Below, piece by piece: positions 8,551 through 27,964 of a DNA stretch of 34,909 nt; position 1 is the first letter of the stretch, and every line of letters begins with the position of its first letter. The translations under genes and the position numbers were made by a program. This DNA is from Patescibacteria group bacterium. Lineage in GTDB: Bacteria > Patescibacteriota > Patescibacteriia > Patescibacteriales > BM507. The stretch lies in assembly GCA_027858235.1 (NCBI GenBank), contig JAQIDC010000027.1:1-34909 (forward strand). The letters run 5' to 3'. The notes beneath the pieces are model-generated. The model had not been told where the DNA came from, ran no database searches, and worked only from the letters and a program-made list of their open reading frames with translations.

Positions 8551-8609
8551 AGAATTTTATTTTAAAATAATGAAATTTTATTTTTTTATACTAACTTTTG
8601 TCATTATTA

Positions 8610-8658
8610 TTCCCCTCTATGAGAGGGGTGGCAGCTTTGCTGACGGGGTGTGTTTTCG
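8610..8658. repeat. Repeat family A, copy 1
   Basis: Copy of an element built as TTCCCCTCT, a short spacer, AGAGGGGTG, a variable part, then GGGGTGTGTTT. The CCCCTCT/AGAGGGG arms form a hairpin. Other copies lie at 23496, 24203 and 25493, the second and fourth inside genes. It occupies the gap between dtd and the lipoprotein gene. Confidence 0.85.
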
Positions 8659-12290: not shown

Positions 12291-12719
12291 TCAGAACAAT
12301 TTTGTTGTCTGGGGCTTTTCTTTTTCACCTTGCCATTTTATATAACGTCTGACCTGTTCCTCGTTTAGGCCTACTGTTGACGAAAAATATCCCACACTCC
12401 AGATGCCGTCCCAATCGAGGTACATTTCACGAATGAATTTAAATTTCTTCCTTAGATATATGCTAGAGTTTGATTTTAATTTTTGGACGGCCTCTGACAC
12501 GGCCATATTTGGTGGTATTTCTATTTGCAAATGGACATGATCTTGATCTGTGTTCACGATATAGATATGGAGTGTGGGATATTTTTTTACAGTATTAAAA
12601 AGACTAGTGATTAGTTCATCTTTAACATAATCTTTCAACCATTTTCTACGGTGTTTCGTGCCCCAGACTATATGATATTGATGTTTGTATGCACAGTGGC
12701 TTAGACTTTGGATTCTCAT
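12291..12719 (-). CDS. tnpA: IS200/IS605 family Y1 transposase TnpA
   Basis: Single-strand DNA transposase of the HUH class, 142 aa. It carries the HUH motif 'HVH' (61-63) in 'TDQDHVHLQIEIPP', and the catalytic tyrosine Tyr126 with Gln130 in 'VRRYIKWQ'. N-terminus 'YHIVWGTKHRRKWL' and 'GYFSSTVG' are family typical. The frame is intact, so it may be active. No TnpB accompanies it. Near its stop a hairpin (AAGCCCCAGA pairing TCTGAGGCTT with one mismatch) could end the transcript. Confidence 0.93.
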   Translation of the reverse strand: MRIQSLSHCAYKHQYHIVWGTKHRRKWLKDYVKDELITSLFNTVKKYPTLHIYIVNTDQDHVHLQIEIPPNMAVSEAVQKLKSNSSIYLRKKFKFIREMYLDWDGIWSVGYFSSTVGLNEEQVRRYIKWQGEKEKPQTTKLF

Positions 12720-12909: not shown

Positions 12910-14817
12910 CTATTTCAAGTTATTCAATTCTTCAACGTAAACATCTATTTTTTCTTGCCATTCATCATCTATTTCTAACTCTGGGTAAAGATATGATCTA
13001 AGACCGTGATAGAATCCATATGTAACAAATATATAGCTTTCTTTCTCATCACTTGAGACATGCAAATTACCCTCATCAAACTCTAGATCAATGCTATCTT
13101 TATGCTTTATATGCGAGTATACATTATCTCTCTTCTCTACTTTACTGAGAACATCCCCCTCTATCGAGCTACTTGCATATGATATAGATAGCTCCTCCAT
13201 TCTAAATTCTCTTTCTTCGGAGGTAATTATGGAAATTTGATCCAACCAATGTTTCTCTGTCCAGATTATTTTTATTCTCAAGGTACCACTATTCGTATTA
13301 TCTATTGCCTCTTTTAAACTTATGTAGGAATCAGTTTGTAATTCACGAGGGTGAACCATACTATACTCTTTATATTCACCGTTTTCTTCAAAGAAAATAA
13401 TGAAAGAAGCTCTAGCGCTTGCCTTATTTGGATCTGGAATTATCGGCAACGGGGTTGATCCCCATGAGCTCAATGAAAGATAAGTTTCTTTATCTTTTAA
13501 ATCTCTGATATCAATATTAAGCTCAATATAATCATCCAAATTTGCATATAAATTTTCATTGTCTTTTGAGCTTATTTGAGATAGACACTCAATCCTTTCT
13601 GAAGTTTCTTTAAAAAAATAGCAAGAATTAACAAGGCCTTTTTCTTCCATCTTTTTTATTGTCTTGATGTTATTACTTCGATTTTCTACTATTAATTCAG
13701 AATCTTTATTATGTAGAACCCTTATCAGTTTTATTTCATCAAAATGAGATTCTTCTGGCTCCATTTCTTTTATCCTTAGCTTTAATTTACCGTCCTCAAT
13801 ACTTGGATTATTTGACAAAATATAATTATCAACTGGTCTATTCCTTCTTTGACTATCAATACTACTAAAATCGTTTAATTCTAAAAGTGAATTTTCATAA
13901 TAATCAACTGCTTCGTCATAAGTATTCCCCCAGAATGTTGCCAAGACATCATTTTCGATAAAGTAATTACCAGATATATTAGCAAAAAGATATGGAGTAG
14001 AACCACAATCCTCAATCCAGTTTATACTTCTACAATAATTATTAAAACAGTCATAAGTAACGCGTTCAAGGGGGACAGGACAAGTAATTATATTAACAGA
14101 TGCGATATAATTATTTGTATTACACTCAGAATCCAAAGTACACACACCCGGCGATGATACTACTGATGGTGTTTCACAGCCAACCGAGCCATCTGAATTT
14201 ATAGCACTAATGAATTTCCCAGCTGTACAAGAATCAACAACCCTTCTCTGAACAGAATCTACATCAGTATCAGTATACAACAAACTTCCATCTTCAATCT
14301 CACTAGTTCCCACTGCCCCTTCTACAATCTCAGAAGAACCAACAGAATCAGCCGCAAGCTCAGAGCTATCTATTGATCCATCCTCAATACGATCTCCATT
14401 CAACATCCCATTTAACCAACCAGGGATTGTTAAATTCCCAGTATCATCTATATTCATGATTTCACTTCCATCACTATAAAATCGATAATAATCATCTGAA
14501 TCGCTATCATCATCAATAGTAAAATTCATCCCCCAACCTTTAGCATCTATATTAATAGAACCATCAGCAGCATTCAAAACATTAGAATAAATTTCACCAT
14601 CAATAGTTAAATCTAGAGATACGTCTAAATCATTATTAACAGTTAAGGGACCGTTCTTTGTTTGGCCTGCAAGCCCAGTATTAATTGGTGGATCTATATT
14701 CCCTCCAGGAGGTCCAACACTCGGTGCCGACCAAGAAGCAAAAAGAGATTGTAGGGAGATAGAAAGCCCAAGAACCAATACTATAGTGATAATAAATCTA
14801 AGTTGAGATTTTAACAT
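12910..14817 (-). CDS. Large secreted surface protein, Patescibacteria-type N-terminus, unknown
   Basis: 635 aa. Signal peptide (hydrophobic 8-26) ends near 'LFASWS'. Next come 'SAPSVGPPGGNIDPPINTG' (30-48) and 'GPLTVNNDLDV', a pattern I associate with surface proteins of this lineage. Residues about 55-135 look like a short beta 'collar', then 'RIEDGSIDSSELAADSVG', 'SSEIVEGAVGTSEIEDGS' form 8-10-residue repeats like those in tail-fibre or adhesin stalks. A cysteine-rich patch follows (about 193-270; C-x-D-S-E-C). The C-terminal 350 residues are charged and globular, unknown to me. Monocistronic, with its own promoter and a very strong terminator. Adhesin or stalk is inference. Confidence 0.8.
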   Translation of the reverse strand: MLKSQLRFIITIVLVLGLSISLQSLFASWSAPSVGPPGGNIDPPINTGLAGQTKNGPLTVNNDLDVSLDLTIDGEIYSNVLNAADGSINIDAKGWGMNFTIDDDSDSDDYYRFYSDGSEIMNIDDTGNLTIPGWLNGMLNGDRIEDGSIDSSELAADSVGSSEIVEGAVGTSEIEDGSLLYTDTDVDSVQRRVVDSCTAGKFISAINSDGSVGCETPSVVSSPGVCTLDSECNTNNYIASVNIITCPVPLERVTYDCFNNYCRSINWIEDCGSTPYLFANISGNYFIENDVLATFWGNTYDEAVDYYENSLLELNDFSSIDSQRRNRPVDNYILSNNPSIEDGKLKLRIKEMEPEESHFDEIKLIRVLHNKDSELIVENRSNNIKTIKKMEEKGLVNSCYFFKETSERIECLSQISSKDNENLYANLDDYIELNIDIRDLKDKETYLSLSSWGSTPLPIIPDPNKASARASFIIFFEENGEYKEYSMVHPRELQTDSYISLKEAIDNTNSGTLRIKIIWTEKHWLDQISIITSEEREFRMEELSISYASSSIEGDVLSKVEKRDNVYSHIKHKDSIDLEFDEGNLHVSSDEKESYIFVTYGFYHGLRSYLYPELEIDDEWQEKIDVYVEELNNLK

Positions 14818-15010: not shown

Positions 15011-15148
15011 TGTCATCTTGAGCGAAGTGCTAACGTGGCCGAAAAATCCCTTTTTGTTTTGACTAAAATATTAATCATATTCCCAAAGGGATTTCTCAAT
15101 TTCGCTCCGCTACATTCCCCGCATGCTGACGGGGCAGGCGAAATGACA
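15011..15148. repeat. Repeat family B, copy with TGTCAT/ATGACA ends
   Basis: Begins TGTCATCTTGAGCGAAG and ends GCGAAATGACA, so the outer ends are inverted. Inside, AAATCCCTTT (about 15044) pairs with AAAGGGATTT (15085-15094). Together with the E repeat and the array it fills the 14818-15336 gap, which holds no gene. Confidence 0.7.
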
Positions 15149-15153
15149 GGTAT

Positions 15154-15342
15154 GTTACATGTTTTGTGTTACATGCTACATGTTTTGTGTTACATGCTAC
15201 ATGCTTTGTGTTACATGCTTTGTGCTATGTGTTACATGTTTTGTGTTACATGTTTTGTGTTACATGTTTTGTGTTACATGCTACATGCTTTGTGTTACAT
15301 GTTCTGTGCTATGTGTTACATGCTTTGTGTTTTGGGTTACAT
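15154..15342. repeat. 27-unit heptanucleotide array
   Basis: The 189 bases divide with no remainder into 27 heptamers starting at 15154. GTTACAT occurs 12 times, GTTTTGT 5, GCTTTGT 4, GCTACAT 3, GCTATGT 2... with single variants GTTCTGT and GTTTTGG making the rest (counts by eye; one class may be off by one). All fit GYTNNNK. GTTACAT occurs every second or third unit, giving 14- and 21-base higher-order periods. The last unit overlaps the stop codon of the VanZ-QueH gene on the other strand. Confidence 0.92.
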
Positions 15343-16254
15343 GCCCCTCCTCTTCTCCGCATCAGCCAAAGAAAACTCGCAACCACAATAATCCTGTCTA
15401 TATAAGTCTAGTTTTCTGGACATTTCGGCTGCTTTTTTAAATCCGTCTTGCTTTTTAAAGTCTCTTTCCAAAAAACCAAGCTCGTACTTACGTCCCAAGT
15501 CTTGACCAAATTTCATAATTGCTTGAGCATTTTTATGAGGGCTTGTTGTTAAGGTTGTAGCAAAATAATGAAAACCATTTTCAGAAGCATAACGAGCAGT
15601 TTCCTCCAATCTTTCTCGATAACACATCATACACCTCTCTCCCTTTTCCGGGTCAGTCTCATGACCACTAACCATTTCTCTCCATTTTTTATGATCATAG
15701 CCACCGATGATAACTTTTATTTTATACATCTTTGCCACTTTTTTTATTTCTTCGAGTCTCTTTTCATATTCACGTAAAGGAAAAATATTTGGATTATAAA
15801 AATATAGAGACACCCTAAACTCTTTCCTTAAAACCTCACTCACATAAACCCCACAACCAATACAACAAATATGTAGGAGCAAGCTTGGTTTAGGAGAATT
15901 ATTTATAAAATAGGCATAAAGCATAGCTAGTGCTGCTCCAGCAATTCCAAATAATAAATCATACTCATCAACTGTCCTTCCCGGAACATAGGCCTGAACT
16001 ATTTCGAGAGAGAAAGAGTAGAGAGAAGAAAATAGAAAAGCATACTTTAAGGCACTCAAAAACTCCTTATTCTTGTCAATTAGTAAATATTGAAAAATTA
16101 AATATGCAAAAATTCCAAAAAGAATAAAATGAACTCCTTTATCATAATAAGTTATTTCGTGCGTTTCAAACTCTTTCATGGGAAAAGTTAAAAGAATAAG
16201 GATCAATAATCCCCAAAGAAAGGTGTACAACAATTTAGAACTCTTTTTTTTCAT
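15337..16254 (-). CDS. queH: Fusion of VanZ-like membrane domain and epoxyqueuosine reductase QueH
   Basis: 305 aa in two parts. Residues 8-116 are a VanZ-like domain with four helices and its full signature: 'YYDKGVHFILFG' (36-47) and 'SLEIVQAYVPGRTVDEYDLL' (82-101). Residues 124-305 are a complete QueH, which reduces epoxyqueuosine to queuosine in tRNA: 'LLHICCIGCG' (Cys130, 131, 134), 'FYNPNIFPLREYEKRL', 'CMMCYRERL' (Cys208, 211), and 'YRQDYCGCEFS' (Cys290, 292), the Fe-S and iron ligands. No frameshift separates the parts; the linker is only 'INNSPKPS'. It starts directly after the stop of the WecA-like gene (TAAATG), so translation is coupled. Its stop TAA comes from the adjoining heptamer repeat. 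Confidence 0.9.
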   Translation of the reverse strand: MKKKSSKLLYTFLWGLLILILLTFPMKEFETHEITYYDKGVHFILFGIFAYLIFQYLLIDKNKEFLSALKYAFLFSSLYSFSLEIVQAYVPGRTVDEYDLLFGIAGAALAMLYAYFINNSPKPSLLLHICCIGCGVYVSEVLRKEFRVSLYFYNPNIFPLREYEKRLEEIKKVAKMYKIKVIIGGYDHKKWREMVSGHETDPEKGERCMMCYRERLEETARYASENGFHYFATTLTTSPHKNAQAIMKFGQDLGRKYELGFLERDFKKQDGFKKAAEMSRKLDLYRQDYCGCEFSLADAEKRRGM

Positions 16255-20982: not shown

Positions 20983-22140
20983 CTACAACATATCTAAAAC
21001 TTCCTTCGTCTCTTCAGCACAAGATACCCAAGAATATTTTTTTATCTGCTCCCTTCCTTTTTCTACCAAACCTTCTCTTATCGCTGGATTATTGAATATT
21101 ATTTTAATCAATTCCACTAACTCTTCTCTATTTTCTGGATTAAAATATTTAACTGCATCACCCAGGACTTCTGGCATGCTTGCTGCGTTCGAGCTTATAA
21201 CTGGACAGTCATTAGCCATGGCCTCTAACGGTGGTATTCCAAACCCTTCATACTTTGACGGGAACACATAAGCCATCGCCCCTTGAAATAAATATTGAAG
21301 CTCATCATCTGGAACATAACCAGGAAAAATTGTTTTTTTACCATCAGATCCATTCGGCTCGTTTTTCAACTTAATCTCTTTTAACCTCTTGAAAAAATAA
21401 TCTTCTTTACCGACAAGAACTAAGTCAATTTTTAGGTCGCCCAATTCTCTGTAGTAAACATCCATTAACCATTCAAGATTTTTGTGGGGATAGGCATTCC
21501 CAACATACAAAAGATAAGGCTTTTCTATCTTGTATTTATCTAGTGTTTTTATAATGTTTTCTGGAGCTGACTCCCCTTCAATCAATCTTTGTGAAACTCC
21601 TTCAAGGGTGACAATTACCTTATCAGAATCAATGGAAAAGTTTTCCAGAATATCCTTTTTTGTAAATTCTGAAACGGCAATAATTTTTTTTGATTTTTTT
21701 ATAGCCAAATCCAGAGAAAGCCTGTATGCTTTATTTTTTATTTTATACAAAAGTGGAGAAAGTTTGGTGGCTCGCAGACTTGGAAATTTTATTAAAATAA
21801 GATCATGAATTGTCACCACGAATTTTGTAGGACAAAATAAGGGAACATTAAAATGATGAAAATGCATTAAATCAATTTTTTCACGCCAGATATAATAAGG
21901 CATCAAAATTTGCTCTAACATAGTATACCATCGAACGTCAGCTAACACTTTCCTTGCGCGAGGATTATTAGTCTTGAAAGAATCAAAATTTTCTTTGCAC
22001 AAAAAAATAACATATTCATTGTACCCGTCAATATTCAAAAGATTATCAACAACCTCTTGAGTGTAACGACCAAGTCCCTTTCCAACTGGTCCATAGAAAC
22101 GAGCATCAATGCCTATTCTTTTATGTTTTTTATTATCCAT
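20983..22140 (-). CDS. Glycosyltransferase family 4 (GT-B fold)
   Basis: Cytoplasmic-face retaining glycosyltransferase, 385 aa. N-terminal domain 'IGIDARFYGPVGKGLGRYT' (9-27), 'DLMHFHHFNVP' (90-100) and 'TIHDLILIKFP'. C-terminal nucleotide-sugar domain: 'LYVGNAYPHKNLEWLM' (211-226), 'YVPDDELQYLFQGAMAYVFP' (275-294), and the E-x7-E motif 'EGFGIPPLEAMA' (Glu298, Glu306). A mannosyl- or rhamnosyltransferase of a surface glycan is plausible; the sugar cannot be told. The ATG follows an extended -10 by only 6 bases. Confidence 0.93.
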   Translation of the reverse strand: MDNKKHKRIGIDARFYGPVGKGLGRYTQEVVDNLLNIDGYNEYVIFLCKENFDSFKTNNPRARKVLADVRWYTMLEQILMPYYIWREKIDLMHFHHFNVPLFCPTKFVVTIHDLILIKFPSLRATKLSPLLYKIKNKAYRLSLDLAIKKSKKIIAVSEFTKKDILENFSIDSDKVIVTLEGVSQRLIEGESAPENIIKTLDKYKIEKPYLLYVGNAYPHKNLEWLMDVYYRELGDLKIDLVLVGKEDYFFKRLKEIKLKNEPNGSDGKKTIFPGYVPDDELQYLFQGAMAYVFPSKYEGFGIPPLEAMANDCPVISSNAASMPEVLGDAVKYFNPENREELVELIKIIFNNPAIREGLVEKGREQIKKYSWVSCAEETKEVLDML

Positions 22141-22146
22141 AATTCA

Positions 22147-22152
22147 ATTATA
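22147..22152 (-). promoter_or_regulatory. Extended -10 directly before GT4 gene (leaderless transcript)
   Basis: Minus strand TGCTATAAT, then TGAATT, then the ATG. With 6 bases between hexamer and start codon, transcription should begin at or within a base or two of the ATG. No Shine-Dalgarno site is possible. Confidence 0.65.
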
Positions 22153-22166
22153 GCACATGCTAAGAG

Positions 22167-22200
22167 AGACCTCCGATGTCCTCGAAGACATCGAAGGTCT
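22167..22200. repeat. Repeat family C, copy 1 (hairpin)
   Basis: 14-base arms AGACCTCCGATGTC (22167-22180) and GACATCGAAGGTCT (22187-22200) with one mismatch, followed by ACGCACAT. Related copy at 25211. It lies between two glycosyltransferase genes and could also stop the upstream transcript, though no T run follows. Confidence 0.75.
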
Positions 22201-22207
22201 ACGCACA

Positions 22208-24193
22208 TTATTTAGTTTGGATGTTTTCTATCCTTTCATCTTTCACCTTTTCACTTTTAACTATTCTATACAGCGTAAAATCACCAGTAACTCTCTGGAC
22301 CTCTTCAATCCTCAAATCAAACTCAGCCAACCTCCTTGAATTTAAATATTCAACATCCTTCTCTGGCAAAGTAAAATTATAATAATAAACAGGCAAATGT
22401 TTAACCATCCTAGAATACCTTTCAACCATTGCCTTGTCATCAAAAAGCCCAACAACAACTTTTCTTTCAGGAAATAAAAGCTTGTCATGATAGAGAGTAA
22501 TTATCACAGAATTACCTTCAGTTAGGTCTAGAACTTTTCTCGCCTCAGCGCTTGCCTTCACCTGCTTTTGAGCAACATAAATCAACCCTTCTTCAGAGCC
22601 ATACAAAACAAACTGGATTGAAGTAAATGAAACAACTGCAAGGAAAATAGCCACAATCCCCCATTTTATATAGTCTTTTCTAATTCGATAATTTAAAAAT
22701 TTAGTAACCTTAAGTTTTTGTGAAAATGGCCAAGCAATAAATTGTCCGACTGATAACACCAATATTGAAACCATTGGAAAAGCACCTAGATAAACTGGGA
22801 GCCAATAACGAGTGTAGGAGTTACCAATTGTAAAACTATTTGGGTCTGGGTTATCAGTGAAGCCCCAAGACCCATAGTAAATAATTAAGATAAAAGAAAT
22901 AGTAAAATAAGACAAAATATATAGGAAATATTTTTTGCGCCAATTTTCAATTGCTCTGTAGAGGAAAATAAAACCACCAAGCAGTGCTGGCCAAAAAATT
23001 AGGGGAAACATATATACAAAATAATGTTGGAAACGATGGAAACTTTGTCTTGGTTGCAAACCAAAATAGAAAAAGCTATCTTTAAGTGTTTCAAGAGGTC
23101 CTCTGGCTTTCGAAACTTCTCCACTCAATGTTGATTTAACTATATCAGAACTAGCTTCTTTGATATTTATAATAGACTGATTCATTTCCGAATATCCACC
23201 AAGCAATGGATTGGAATATAATATCGTATTATAATAAAACATCGGGAGCATGGCCAAAAGAAGAAAACCAACAAAAATTAATAATTTTAATAATCCCACT
23301 TTCCTAAAATTAAAAATCCATAAAATAATAAAAATAGGAGCAATCCACATCAATTCAGACGTCCGAACAATCACAGCCAAACCAACAAAGAAGCCGGTGA
23401 GTGCTGAATAGAAAAGATATAAAAAGTTTTTATATTTTGGGAAGGAAACAAATTCTTTAAACCAACTTACTGTCCATTTTTTAAATCTTTTAAATATTCC
23501 CCTCTCGAGAGGGGTGCCCGTATGGGCGGGGTGTGTTTCTACTTTTGCTTTTGTCATCCTCGCGAATGCGGGGATCCAGAAATTATTTAATTTAGAAACA
23601 ACTTGCCACCATTTTGCATTATTTTTCTTCTTAGAATGGCCGTCCACCATCATCAAAGAATAATAAAATCCAATCACAAGAAAAACCGTAAACAAAACAT
23701 TATGAAACATACTTCTAGCGCTATAGTAAGTATAGACTGGGAAAAATACCAAAAGAATACTAGAAACTAGGGCAATATTTTTGTTAAAAAGTTTCTTAAT
23801 CAGGAGATAATAATAAATAATTCCGATAGAGGCAAAAAGTGGAGTAAGATAAGGAATTATTTTAAAAGTTGTAAACTTCACTATTGTCCCAAAAATTAAA
23901 ATAATACCCAAAAAAGAGACTGGCTTTATTTCCCCATGATCGCTTCGAAAACTCCTCGGTCGCATCACATCATCAACATAAAGATTAAACTTTTCATAAA
24001 TAGTCAAAGTCCCCTCCTGACCATAAAGTTTCGTCAAAATATAATTAGCAGTCTCATCTGGTGATAGCCATTTAACAAAATTACTATCTTGAGTGGTAAA
24101 ATTAAAACTACTTACAGCAAAAAAGAAAACAAACGAAAACAGGACAACTATTGCGCCATAGATAAAAGATTTATTTTTAAAAATGTTTTTCAT
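22208..24193 (-). CDS. GT39/PMT_2-like membrane glycosyltransferase with repeat-derived insert
   Basis: 661 aa, about ten or more helices, GT-C fold. The first outside loop carries 'KWLSPDETANYILTKLYG' (41-58), where Asp-Glu is the catalytic-type pair of the PMT_2/ArnT-like family that uses polyprenyl-phosphate sugars. 'YYSARSMFHNVLFTVFLV' (156-173) follows. Residues 206-234 are read from two intergenic repeats (families F and A): 'WIPAFARMTK' then 'THPAHTGTPLERGIF', in the cytoplasmic loop after 'MMVDGHSKKKNNAKWWQ'. The frame stays open, so the protein may be functional. Last about 120 residues form an extracytoplasmic tail. Confidence 0.8.
   Translation of the reverse strand: MKNIFKNKSFIYGAIVVLFSFVFFFAVSSFNFTTQDSNFVKWLSPDETANYILTKLYGQEGTLTIYEKFNLYVDDVMRPRSFRSDHGEIKPVSFLGIILIFGTIVKFTTFKIIPYLTPLFASIGIIYYYLLIKKLFNKNIALVSSILLVFFPVYTYYSARSMFHNVLFTVFLVIGFYYSLMMVDGHSKKKNNAKWWQVVSKLNNFWIPAFARMTKAKVETHPAHTGTPLERGIFKRFKKWTVSWFKEFVSFPKYKNFLYLFYSALTGFFVGLAVIVRTSELMWIAPIFIILWIFNFRKVGLLKLLIFVGFLLLAMLPMFYYNTILYSNPLLGGYSEMNQSIINIKEASSDIVKSTLSGEVSKARGPLETLKDSFFYFGLQPRQSFHRFQHYFVYMFPLIFWPALLGGFIFLYRAIENWRKKYFLYILSYFTISFILIIYYGSWGFTDNPDPNSFTIGNSYTRYWLPVYLGAFPMVSILVLSVGQFIAWPFSQKLKVTKFLNYRIRKDYIKWGIVAIFLAVVSFTSIQFVLYGSEEGLIYVAQKQVKASAEARKVLDLTEGNSVIITLYHDKLLFPERKVVVGLFDDKAMVERYSRMVKHLPVYYYNFTLPEKDVEYLNSRRLAEFDLRIEEVQRVTGDFTLYRIVKSEKVKDERIENIQTK
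23496..23580. repeat. Repeat families A (copy 2) and F inside the GT39-like gene
   Basis: 23496-23538 is family A (ATTCCCCTCTCGAGAGGGG, then GGGCGGGGTGTGTTT). 23551-23580 is family F (GTCATCCTCGCGAATGCG, then GGGATCCAGA), which is the widespread bacterial repeat that encodes WIPAFAGMT-like peptides. Both are in frame. Confidence 0.88.
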
Positions 24194-24202
24194 ACCTTTT
24201 AA

Positions 24203-24254
24203 TTCCCCTCTCGAGAGGGGTGCCGAAGCGTTAGTGAAGGTGGGGTGTGTTTCG
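24203..24254. repeat. Repeat family A, copy 3
   Basis: TTCCCCTCTCGAGAGGGGTG then GGTGGGGTGTGTTTCG, about 10 bases upstream of the GT39-like ATG. It therefore forms most of that gene's 5' leader. Confidence 0.85.
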
Positions 24255-24350
24255 CCACTTAATTCCCGTTATCCTAGCAAAAAAAAACGATAAAAGCAAG
24301 ATTTTATCGATATTCTTTGTTTTATTTATAATTACCTCCCCTCTCCTCTC

Positions 24351-24579
24351 TGTCATCCTGGAACGAAGCGCTAGCGAAGTGATAGGATCTCGTTCATAAA
24401 AATTAGATTCTATCGGTCGCTCAAGCTCTCTCTCTTTTCATTCTGAAACGGATCCGCCAGCTGGCGGAGAAGTAGATAGGATCCCTCATCCCCTTGTCAT
24501 CCTGGAACGGAATACTAGTGGAGTGATAGGATCTCGCTCGTGGAGTTAGATTCTATCGCTAGCGCTCCAGAATGACAAG
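24351..24579. repeat. Repeat family B, two tandem copies
   Basis: TGTCATCCTGGAACG starts at 24351 and again at 24495. The second copy ends GCTCCAGAATGACAA at 24578, complementary to its start. Shared interior: GTGATAGGATCTCG and TTAGATTCTATC. The first copy contains the perfect palindrome TCCGCCAGCTGGCGGA (24453-24468). No gene in 24255-24580. Confidence 0.85.
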
Positions 24580-24580
24580 G

Positions 24581-24864
24581 TTATATATTTACCATTATAT
24601 CATCCCAATTTTTATTTTCTCCTTCAATTAATTCAATCTTTTTTCTTCTAAGTAAATTTTTTATCTGCTTCTCCCTCGCGATGGCATTCTGAATGTAGTC
24701 AAAAACTTCATAATATACTATTTTATTAATATTATATTTAGCCGTAAAACTGTCTTTATTTAACTTGTTTTTATGTTCCCATTCACGTTTTATTAAACTT
24801 CTTGTCACTCCAGTATATAAAACGGTATTGTTTTATTTGTTGCTATATAGATATAATATTTTTG
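24581..24864 (-). pseudogene. GIY-YIG nuclease-like gene, frameshifted and 5'-truncated
   Basis: The readable 3' part 'LYTGVTRSLIKREWEHKN' to 'NWDDIMVNI' matches the UPF0213 single-domain GIY-YIG family ('GVT..L..R..EHK', 'YYE', 'AI.REKQIK...R'). Upstream in another frame the missing start 'QKYYIYIATNK' can be read (24864 down to 24832). The frames meet at an A run at 24831-24834: one extra A would restore 'YYIYIATNKNNTVLYTGV'. No in-frame ATG precedes it because a family B repeat begins at 24881. A second B repeat abuts the stop codon. I read it as a decayed gene; a sequencing error in the A run is possible. Confidence 0.75.
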
Positions 24865-24880
24865 ATCCTTAATAATTTCG

Positions 24881-25023
24881 TTGTCATCCTGGAACGGAAC
24901 GCTAGTGAAGTGATAGGATTTCTCGTCACTTTGTCACCCTGGAGCGCCAGCGATAGGGTCTCGTTCGTGGAATTAGATTCTATCTGTCTCCGCCAGCTGG
25001 CGGATCCTCTCCAGAATGACAAG
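24881..25023. repeat. Repeat family B, copy 3
   Basis: TTGTCATCCTGGAACG at 24881 and TCTCCAGAATGACAA ending at 25022 form inverted ends. Interior GTGATAGGAT, TTAGATTCTATC and palindrome TCCGCCAGCTGGCGGA (24989-25004). It borders the 5' end of the GIY-YIG remnant. Confidence 0.87.
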
Positions 25024-25049
25024 AAAAATGATAATTTTTTAACAAAACA

Positions 25050-25125
25050 AGAAGCTAAACTTTTAATTATTTCCTTTCTGGACTCCCGCCTTCGCGGGGA
25101 TGAAAAAGGAAAAAGCTTAGCTTCT
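25050..25125. repeat. Three-tier hairpin: terminator-like stem with family F repeat in its loop
   Basis: Outer arms 25050-25064 (AGAAGCTAAACTTTT) and 25111-25125 (AAAAGCTTAGCTTCT) with one mismatch. A middle TTCCTTT/AAAGGAA stem and an inner CCCGC-CTTC-GCGGG stem belong to a family F copy. The outer stem resembles the terminator at 12859 (AGAAGCTAAG arms). Confidence 0.7.
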
Positions 25126-25210
25126 ATTATATGAGAATATAGTTTTTTTAAAGGGTTTTGCATGGGGGCAAAGAAATATTTGAGATTTTTATATTACTAA
25201 ATATAGCCAA

Positions 25211-25256
25211 AAGACATGCGATGTCTTTAAGGACTTCGGAGGTCTACACGCATAAG
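25211..25256. repeat. Repeat family C, copy 2
   Basis: AAGACATGCGATGTCTT palindrome (25211-25227), then AAGGACTTCGGAGGTCTAC, matching the right half of the 22167 copy. It lies about 45 bases before a leaderless start. I see no gene in 24883-25301. Confidence 0.65.
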
Positions 25257-25289
25257 ACAAACTCTATACCTTGCATATTATAAATATGC

Positions 25290-25295
25290 TACAAT
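25290..25295 (+). promoter_or_regulatory. Extended -10 directly before the 667-aa gene (leaderless transcript)
   Basis: TGCTACAAT followed by TTAGAC and the ATG at 25302. Same geometry as the GT4 gene: 6 bases from hexamer to start codon. No good -35 at the usual distance. Confidence 0.65.
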
Positions 25296-25301
25296 TTAGA
25301 C

Positions 25302-27305
25302 ATGAAAATAAATATACAAAAAATAACGCTTTGGGATGTTTTTATCATTCTGAACTTAATCTCCTTTTTTGGGGCAGTAGTTTACAGACTATATAAACTA
25401 AATAATCTTGGAATACTCATCACTATTTTTTTAGCGACTGGAGGATTTTTATTATTCCAAAAATTACAAGTGAAAGAAATCAGCGACAATAAAAACACAC
25501 CCCACCCTACGGGCACCCCTCTCAGAGAGGGGAATATTAAAAAACTTTTTTCTATTCTCTTTTCTCTTCAAAAAAAATCTAGAATAGTTTTTTTAATAAC
25601 ATTTTTATATACATTCCTTTTTGCTAACTCTCTCTACATCTTATTTAGCAATGCAACCGACAAATCAATAATCAGTCCTTGGCAAGTTATTCCTCCTTAT
25701 TTTTTTATATTCTATATACTTTCTCTCCTCACTCTCATCCTCATCACAAAAAAAAGCAGTCAAAGAGTATCCTTGTTTTTTATTTCCGCTCACTTCTTTT
25801 TATCATTTTCTATTGCCATGATTATTTACAAAATTGGCTATGGCTTTGACCCATTCATTCATGAGGCCACAATGGATATAATCAAAGAAAAAGGATTTGT
25901 CGATCCTAAACCTCTCTATTATTTAGGGCAATATAGTTTAATTATCATTTTAAACAAAACACTTTTTATTCCAATTGCTTTTTTAAATAAATTTTTAATT
26001 CCCATCCTCGCTTCAATTTTTCTTCCAAAAGTTATTTTTGAATATCTAAATAGTCGTTTTGAAAACAAAACTATTTCTTTCGTTTCTATTATTGCTCTTT
26101 TAATACTTCCTTTTTCATTTTTTATTATGAGTACTCCGCAAAATTTTGCCTATCTTCTTTTGATTATAATTATTATAAAATCACTAAATATTAAAAATTA
26201 TCATGACTTAGCCTTCATATATCTCCTATCTCTAGTGGCCCTTGTAACACAGCCAGTCGCTGGCATCCCTGCCTTCTTATTTGTAGTTTCATTAAATATT
26301 TACCACTCTGAAATAAAATTTAGGAAAATATTTCTTAGTATCATCTTCATCTTGATGGCAACTGCTCTTCCTCTTTCTTTTTATTTGTTTGAAAAAACCC
26401 CAGACTCTCAAGTGGGTATAACAAATAATTTTCTACCAAGTCTAGTATCTACTATTTCAAATACTTCAACCAATTCGGCATCATTTTTTATTCCAAAGCA
26501 AGACAACTTTATTTATAACTTCATCTATCTTTATGGTTTTAATATCAAACTAATAATATTTTTGTTATTTTTATCTGGTTTTTTTATTTCTTTGAGATAT
26601 AAAAAAGAGTGTAAAATATTTATACACTTCTTTTTTGCTTCTCTCTCTATATTTATTGCCTACCTTTTCACTTCTTCTCTTAGTTTTTCATTCTTGGTTG
26701 AATATGAAAGAAATAATTTTTCTAACAGAATCTTATTAATTTCTTCTTTTTTTCTCCTCCCCTATATTCTTTTGTCATTTTATACTTTTTTCTACAGACT
26801 TAAATCTACCAGCAAGGCAATTCAAGCACCTATCTTTATTTTTCTCTTAATTCTTGTCTCTACTTCTCTCTATCTCTCTTATCCTCGTTTTGACAAAAAC
26901 CATAATTCGCATGGTGTTTCAACTAGCGTTTACGACATCGAAGCTACAAAATGGATTGAGGATAATAATAAAAGACAATATCTAGTCTTGGCCAATCAAC
27001 AAGTAAGCGCGGCTGCTCTCAAAAACTTCGGATTTAATAAATACTTTAGTGGTGGAATATTTTACTATCCAATTCCTACATCAAGCCCACTTTATAATTA
27101 TTATCTCGATATGGTATATGACAGACCAAGTAAAGAAAATGCTCTTAAGGCGATGAACCTACTCAACATAAATGAAGTATATTTTGTATTAAACAAATAC
27201 TGGTGGGCTTTCCCAAAGATTCTTGACGAGGCTAAAATAGAAGCTGATTCTTATAAGAGTTTTGGAGATGGAGAAGTTTATGTTTTTAAATATACGAGAG
27301 AATAA
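25302..27305 (+). CDS. Polytopic membrane protein, GT-C-glycosyltransferase-like, unknown
   Basis: 667 aa, about twelve helices and a C-terminal soluble tail (about 560-667, 'YDIEATKWIEDNNKRQYLVL', 'NEVYFVLNKYWWAFPKILDEA'). The overall plan (helices, then a soluble tail) and 'GYGFDPFIHEATMDIIKEKG' (about 180-199), whose Asp in the first large loop could be a catalytic residue, resemble GT-C transferases of surface glycans; no family is proven. Residues 65-78 'NTPHPTGTPLREGN' are read from a family A repeat in a cytoplasmic loop. Only large plus-strand gene in this region, with a leaderless promoter. Confidence 0.7.
   Translation: MKINIQKITLWDVFIILNLISFFGAVVYRLYKLNNLGILITIFLATGGFLLFQKLQVKEISDNKNTPHPTGTPLREGNIKKLFSILFSLQKKSRIVFLITFLYTFLFANSLYILFSNATDKSIISPWQVIPPYFFIFYILSLLTLILITKKSSQRVSLFFISAHFFLSFSIAMIIYKIGYGFDPFIHEATMDIIKEKGFVDPKPLYYLGQYSLIIILNKTLFIPIAFLNKFLIPILASIFLPKVIFEYLNSRFENKTISFVSIIALLILPFSFFIMSTPQNFAYLLLIIIIIKSLNIKNYHDLAFIYLLSLVALVTQPVAGIPAFLFVVSLNIYHSEIKFRKIFLSIIFILMATALPLSFYLFEKTPDSQVGITNNFLPSLVSTISNTSTNSASFFIPKQDNFIYNFIYLYGFNIKLIIFLLFLSGFFISLRYKKECKIFIHFFFASLSIFIAYLFTSSLSFSFLVEYERNNFSNRILLISSFFLLPYILLSFYTFFYRLKSTSKAIQAPIFIFLLILVSTSLYLSYPRFDKNHNSHGVSTSVYDIEATKWIEDNNKRQYLVLANQQVSAAALKNFGFNKYFSGGIFYYPIPTSSPLYNYYLDMVYDRPSKENALKAMNLLNINEVYFVLNKYWWAFPKILDEAKIEADSYKSFGDGEVYVFKYTRE
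25493..25537. repeat. Repeat family A, copy 4, in frame inside the 667-aa gene
   Basis: Reverse orientation relative to 23496 but the same relative to the coding frame reversed: AACACACCCCACC, ACGGGCACCCCTCTC, AGAGAGGGGAATATT. Encodes 'NTPHPTGTPLREGN'. Confidence 0.88.
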
Positions 27306-27350: not shown

Positions 27351-27355
27351 AAAAT

Positions 27356-27443
27356 AATCAGTAGATTCTGAACTGCGCCGTTTAAGCCACTTTGTGACTA
27401 CGGGAGACATCGCTCACACGCGAGCCATTTCAGAATGACTTTG
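27356..27443. repeat. Repeat family G, copy 1
   Basis: About 88 bases from AATCAGTAGATTCTGAACTG to CAGAATGACTTTG, with an inner CACTTTGTGACTACGGGAG and CGCTCACACGCGAGCC. Nearly identical copy 357 bases downstream. Confidence 0.9.
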
Positions 27444-27463: not shown

Positions 27464-27594
27464 CTGTCATTCCAAACTTGATTTGGAATCTTCGTATTAT
27501 TTTAATTTTGGATACGGAACGATAATAGAGCGATAGGATCTCTTTCGTTGGATTGGATTCTATCTCCGCCAGTTGGCGGATTCCAGAATGACAG
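27464..27594. repeat. Repeat family B, copy 4
   Basis: CTGTCATTCCAAACTTG at the start, TTCCAGAATGACAG at the end, shared GCGATAGGATCTC and GGATTCTATC, and TCCGCCAGTTGGCGGA (27565-27580). Confidence 0.82.
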
Positions 27595-27600
27595 GAAAAA

Positions 27601-27640
27601 AATAGGGTACTCTATAGGGTACTCTATAGAGTACCCTATT
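27601..27640. repeat. Triple GGGTACTCTATA palindrome
   Basis: AATAGGGTACTCTATA (27601-27616) pairs perfectly with 27625-27640. An alternative perfect 20-base palindrome lies at 27617-27636. The two folds share the right arm and exclude each other. Confidence 0.85.
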
Positions 27641-27712
27641 CTCTTAACAAATGTCATTCTGAACTTGTTTATTGCGGGGATTCTTAATCTTCATATTATT
27701 TTAATTCTTGAT

Positions 27713-27799
27713 AATCAGTAGATTCTGAACTGCCCCGTTTAAGCCACTTTGTGGCTACGGGAGACATCGTTCACACGCGAGCCATTCAGAATGACTTTT
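27713..27799. repeat. Repeat family G, copy 2
   Basis: Matches 27356-27443 with a handful of substitutions (e.g. TTTGTGGCTACGGG for TTTGTGACTACGGG). Confidence 0.9.
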
Positions 27800-27828
27800 T
27801 TATTTATTTATTTTTCATGTCTCACTAT

Positions 27829-27964
27829 GTCATCCTGCCTGTCCCGTCATTTGCGGGAGAACGGAACGCTAGTGGAGCGATAGGATCTCTTTCGTTGAAT
27901 TAGATTCTATCACCCCAGGAGTACTTTGTCGCTCCACTCGGGCGCGCTACGCTCCAGAATGACA
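27829..27964. repeat. Repeat family B, copy 5, with E-like tail
   Basis: TGTCATCCTGCCTGTCCCG start and CTCCAGAATGACA end, shared GCGATAGGATCTC and TTAGATTCTATC; the interior CACCCCAGGAGTACTTTGTCG resembles family E. The 27306-28039 gap contains repeats only. Confidence 0.82.

Follow-up and report, generated by a model that had tools for sequence, protein, structure and literature searches.

The window, that is, the whole 34,909-nt stretch analysed here, is contig C27 of a Falkowbacteria-like patescibacterial genome (G000) of 1.43 Mb in 72 contigs. Its minus strand carries at 22208..24193 a gene for a PMT_2/GT39-like GT-C glycosyltransferase of 661 aa, recognised from Pfam, a structural model and a motif. 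The Pfam profile PMT_2 (PF13231) matches the protein with E=5.8e-08, and its AlphaFold model (pLDDT 82 overall) has PDB matches to the GT-C enzymes OST, AglB, ArnT and ALG9/ALG12, so that both profile and fold place the gene in GT39/PMT_2. The SPDE motif is unchanged across 29 aligned sequences. Between predicted helices, the protein has a K/R-rich loop at about residues 185-255 (23427..23639, minus strand), defined by low model confidence and by its variable length in orthologues. The pLDDT of this loop is ~48-72, mostly near 50, compared with 86-98 for most of the core. In GT39 enzymes, the helix preceding the corresponding loop runs toward the cytoplasm. Because the loop is K/R-rich and follows this helix, it is likely cytoplasmic, as the earlier note had called it, with the side judged on the positive charge of the loop and on the topology of the GT-C family.

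Two short repeats of different families, termed F and A, lie within this loop and are read in frame. The F element at 23496..23538 (plus strand; pattern matches and repeat copies) is built as CCCCTCTC-GAGAGGGG-TG-CCCGTATGGGC-GGGGTGTGTT, and its minus-strand reading contributes ..THPAHTGTPLERGIF to the protein. Separated from it by 14 nt, the A element at 23553..23579 (plus strand; pattern matches) is a REP-like palindrome, GTCATCCTCGCGAATGCGGGGATCCAG, with the minus-strand reading WIPAFARMT. The F and A segment reads in the host frame as FWIPAFARMTKAKVETHPAHTGTPLERGIF, and the reading frame is uninterrupted over the whole 661 aa, insert included. In shuffles of the window, 0-0.01 matches were expected for each of the F and A patterns, compared with two found for each. 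When the 120-nt region was compared with 298 kb of its own genome, 11 other stretches matched it, with a best E of ~1e-12. These data confirm that A and F stand next to each other, in frame, inside a GT39-like gene. The 111-nt minus-strand region, folded alone, gave z = -3.1 relative to shuffles. A known structured RNA was considered and rejected, as the Rfam search of window positions 22000-26000 returned no match. No target-site duplication was detected for A or F in the window.

The glycosyltransferase loop in orthologues

We compared the loop with those of 89 GT39 orthologues, using residues 177 and 264 of the window protein as anchors. The orthologues have 18-80 aa between these anchors, compared with 88 aa here, which makes the window loop the longest of the 90 sequences, and neither A nor F occurs between the anchors in any of the 89. 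The orthologue of the only same-genus genome (G001) is 25 aa shorter, with 74% and 65% identity on the two sides of the loop; the exact insertion junction cannot be placed against it because the loop itself is unconserved between the two. The result that would have spoken against insertion, a segment conserved among distant homologues, was not found, and the proposal that the elements insert is supported by their absence from the orthologues.

In three further orthologues, this loop holds dispersed repeats of unrelated families, all of them in frame. In G005, the insert is a 131-bp element with the ends GGGACTGTC/GACAGTTCC; it has 27 matches in that genome, and the loop copy is the only one in a long open frame. 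The G084 insert, 99 nt net, has further copies in G084, G073 and G045, is flanked on both sides by TAAA, and faces a near-identical empty site in the congener G073. The insert in G048 starts with GTCATTGCGAG and ends with CTCGCAATGAC. Terminal repeats are carried by the G005 and G084 elements, and F and A are without target-site duplications in the window. None of 81 gene copies (80 named loci and the window) is frameshifted. Since unrelated repeat families have inserted independently in three other genomes, the tolerance of the loop, which the earlier note had only suggested, is demonstrated directly. At a different place in the protein, the C-terminus of the GT39 protein at locus L233 apparently enters a repeat (HVSGFPPSRE); the window's genome has an exact match of 26 nt.

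Families F and A and their in-frame copies

F elements are ~45 bp long and A elements ~27 bp. The F consensus reads A(A/T)T-CCCCTCTTGAGAGGGGTG-[second hairpin, variable]-CGGGGTGTGTT. In 61 copies drawn from four genomes, we counted 42 different versions of the second hairpin; its longest stem averages 4.4, compared with 3.5 in shuffles, and the palindrome is retained in many of these copies but not in all. With a fixed spacer in the pattern, F had seemed scarce and grouped in the window; this artefact was rejected, as relaxed patterns gave 17 distinct copies for inspection in the genome to which the window belongs. Family A is rare in these 1.43 Mb and has 3 copies. Further copies in the window are an F immediately 5' of the glycosyltransferase start codon (24202..24252, plus strand; repeat comparison), an intergenic A (25076..25104, minus strand; pattern match) and an intergenic F (8609..8655, plus strand; pattern and ORF list) overlapped by a 136-aa ORF that is probably spurious. 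The window also holds other repeats: tandem 7-nt units (TGTTACA/TGTTTTG-like) at 15132-15364, adjoining the ORF at 15337-16254; a 76-nt direct repeat, 96% identical, at 27354-27429 and 27711-27786 in a repeat-rich intergenic region; and another abundant intergenic family, GTCATCCTGGAACG...GTGATAGGATCTC, at 24339-25024 and 27514-27914.

Across 111 genomes of the order, mostly draft metagenome assemblies, the F pattern matches 15 genomes (94 matches in G039) and the A pattern 52 (114 matches in G013), and a reversed control pattern has zero matches. Neither pattern matches anywhere in the same-genus genome G001. Named relatives include Candidatus Falkowbacteria and other Parcubacteria/Patescibacteria metagenome assemblies. 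Family A is found in head-to-head pairs ~50 bp apart in G070, G047 and G020, and composite F-in-F units occur at L449 (genic) and L450 (intergenic).

The earlier note had both families otherwise lying between genes. This does not hold for F, and the correction is limited to F. The conserved divergent neighbour gene (25302..27305, plus strand; homologues and alignment), which encodes a membrane protein of 667 aa and has homologues in 54 of the 60 genomes searched, contains a second in-frame F at 25494..25535 (minus strand), identified by its identity to the glycosyltransferase copy and its in-frame span, and read as NTPHPTGTPLREGN. The two in-gene copies, at 23496 and 25494, are each other's closest relatives, with 85-88% identity over 60-68 nt. 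When the insertion sites in homologues were compared by hand, the insert region of the neighbour gene was gapped in relatives. The C-terminal turn of the neighbour protein is a recurrent site as well, with apparent DKGGEG and PSQGEG types spotted by eye. A third host is a 660-aa LTD-domain protein on contig C16, with F in frame in an acidic linker.

A search of the genome for repeat-encoded strings, along the lines that the earlier note had proposed, returned additional in-frame copies, of F in the neighbour gene and the C16 protein, and of other families in isoleucyl-tRNA synthetase (IleRS) and a 280-aa protein. The IleRS, encoded on contig C55, gains 34 residues, PVIASEAKQSQETADEFNKQGLKERDRHVADTPRDD, from a repeat family other than F and A. 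The same-genus IleRS matches it up to residue 215 and resumes at 252 with 6 nt between the two blocks, which is a clean empty site, and other Falkowbacteria have different repeat-like inserts at the same hairpin, for example of the PLDKGGEG and ELSSEASELSS types. At locus L318 (G011, contig C69), a Nudix-like domain of ~140 aa sits in this repeat-taking hairpin (residues ~215-252 in the window's genome). A separate length difference was seen in the IleRS of G015, G031, G039 and G048, where residues 528 and 535 are separated by 186-211 additional aa that may be an intein, a domain or stacked repeats.

We counted an F copy as genic when its open frame extended for at least 60 aa on both sides. 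By this measure, G039 has 16 genic copies out of 33 (at least one of them, L430, probably lying upstream of the true start codon), G015 has 8 out of 16 and the window's genome 3 out of 17; none of the seven inspected in G040 is genic by a 50-aa criterion. The G039 hosts, in which domains were recognised, include DNA polymerase I, LeuRS, MetRS, MurC, MurD, a second Mur ligase and RecQ, as well as MgsA, an E1-E2 ATPase, a POR-type oxidoreductase and FemAB. For LeuRS, the alignment alone is no proof of insertion because solved structures have a linker of comparable length. All six combinations of orientation and phase are represented among the 27 genic F copies (9, 7 and 3 antisense; 6, 1 and 1 sense), so no particular peptide is selected across them. 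Family A in G047 is mostly intergenic, with three copies inside one UvrD-like helicase (L416:1207-4881, contig C18), where the three in-frame A copies are accompanied by a tandem KEKEGMT stretch.

Proposed mobility of the repeats and their tolerance in proteins

It is very likely that F and A are mobile repeats and that the segment in the GT39-like protein is a tolerated in-frame insertion; the interpretation of the earlier note, of inserting elements and a tolerant loop, is supported. F and A would be short, non-autonomous, hairpin-forming repeats of REP/MITE-like character that copy to new sites in the genome. Genic copies would survive where the frame is preserved and the additional residues fall in a permissive loop or turn at the protein surface, and at 23496-23580, A and F together would have lengthened the disordered GT-C loop by ~28 residues (25 net compared with the same-genus orthologue). 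Movement was presumably by transposition. The frame bias would result from selection rather than from a frame-guided insertion mechanism, which is the simpler reading, and the insert is probably neutral for the enzyme.

The copies might instead have spread through recombination or template switching between short palindromes, by gene conversion or slippage, without transposition. The mutual closeness of the two in-gene F copies of the window, which lie only 2 kb apart, the second hairpin that alters its sequence yet often stays palindromic, and the lack of target-site duplications for F and A all point this way. However, F is absent from the same-genus genome and has 94 matches in another, the composite F-in-F units recur at a second place, and the G084 insertion is a clean 99 nt between TAAA tetranucleotides. 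We therefore regard recombination as possible but rather unlikely as the main route. It is doubtful, to a greater degree, that the insertions were recruited as useful, with their peptides altering or regulating the enzyme under positive selection. Recurrence at the same sites, namely the GT39 loop in four genomes and the IleRS hairpin and the neighbour C-terminal turn in several each, would fit such recruitment, but it is compatible with plain tolerance of a surface turn. Moreover, the peptide sequence of the repeats is arbitrary, because unrelated families, frames and orientations are used, and a Rickettsia palindromic element (RPE) in guanylate kinase was neutral to slightly harmful (PMC2229807). 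That the loop is ordinary fast-evolving coding sequence resembling intergenic repeats by chance or low complexity accords with its high variability in all orthologues, but was rejected as highly improbable on the shuffles and the multi-copy matches, and it leaves GC-rich repeat-like palindromes in an AT-rich gene unexplained. An artefact of assembly or binning, conceivable as the sequences are mostly draft metagenome-assembled genomes, is just as hard to credit for elements below 160 bp that lie in frame within otherwise intact conserved genes of many independently assembled genomes.

Rickettsia and Wolbachia provide the best-known examples of palindromic inserts in frame, and the mobile, tolerated repeats proposed here behave as RPEs do, a likeness in mode of action that carries no claim of sequence homology. 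Like RPEs and the Wolbachia palindromic elements, F and A are short dispersed palindromes found both between genes and in frame in unrelated conserved genes. They are multi-copy hairpin repeats (17 F copies in the own genome, 94 matches in G039); they leave their hosts unbroken (GT39, the neighbour and the C16 protein here, PolA, LeuRS, MurC and others in relatives); and empty sites exist, in the 89 GT39 orthologues and, precisely for other families, at IleRS and in G073 opposite G084. In R. conorii, nearly half of the RPEs lie inside ORFs (PMC10969869; RPEs are reviewed there and in PMC2229807). Unlike RPEs, which measure ~105-150 bp compared with ~45 bp for F and ~27 bp for A, the repeats described here belong to several unrelated families, use many frames and orientations, and occur in a different phylum. 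A further resemblance is that of A to REP/REPIN elements, as a short GC-rich palindrome that is paired head to head ~50 bp apart in some relatives; REPs are described as extragenic, unlike the in-gene A and F. Bacterial MITEs such as Correia/NEMIS, ERIC and RU-1/2/3 are small and non-autonomous, with ORFs fused in frame to genes (PMC2229807). The G005 and G084 loop inserts look MITE-like, whereas F and A in the window are without clear terminal inverted repeats and target-site duplications.

We found no report of in-frame palindromic inserts in Patescibacteria in the open-access papers searched, and one may exist elsewhere. The outcome known from Rickettsia and Wolbachia is now seen in this group, with unrelated families, in core enzymes and repeatedly in the same loops. 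With about half of the F copies of G039 and G015 in frame, many of them in housekeeping genes, it is fairly probable that Falkowbacteria harbour a class of very short, frame-tolerant palindromes that invades coding sequence proteome-wide. If so, these repeats would continually supply new protein loops to genomes that are small and reduced. Such inserts form a natural map of where essential proteins tolerate insertions, have consequences for the annotation and phylogenetics of Patescibacteria genomes, and open to testing the way in which mobile palindromes give rise to new segments of proteins.

A Y1 (IS200-like or RAYT-like) transposase acting in trans is a plausible, though unproven, candidate for mobilising F and A. 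Y1 transposases are abundant in the own genome, as in the REP/REPIN and RAYT systems, where the likeness extends to a RAYT as mobiliser only as a candidate. Eleven Y1 loci were found, among them the IS200-like gene of the window at 12291..12719 (minus strand; Pfam PF01797, E=1.5e-28), which is of the candidate type. Linkage of F and A to this gene was considered and discarded, as a scan of its flanks found neither. Among the Y1 loci, only the gene pair on contig C32 has A and F nearby, for F at about chance level, and the others have no convincing F or A copy in their vicinity. An A copy precedes one predicted Y1 gene by ~53 nt. On contig C32, a 46-bp perfect palindrome lies in frame inside two Y1 genes (HFRRPTSKALDVGRLK; L048:12776-12821 and 14661-14706).
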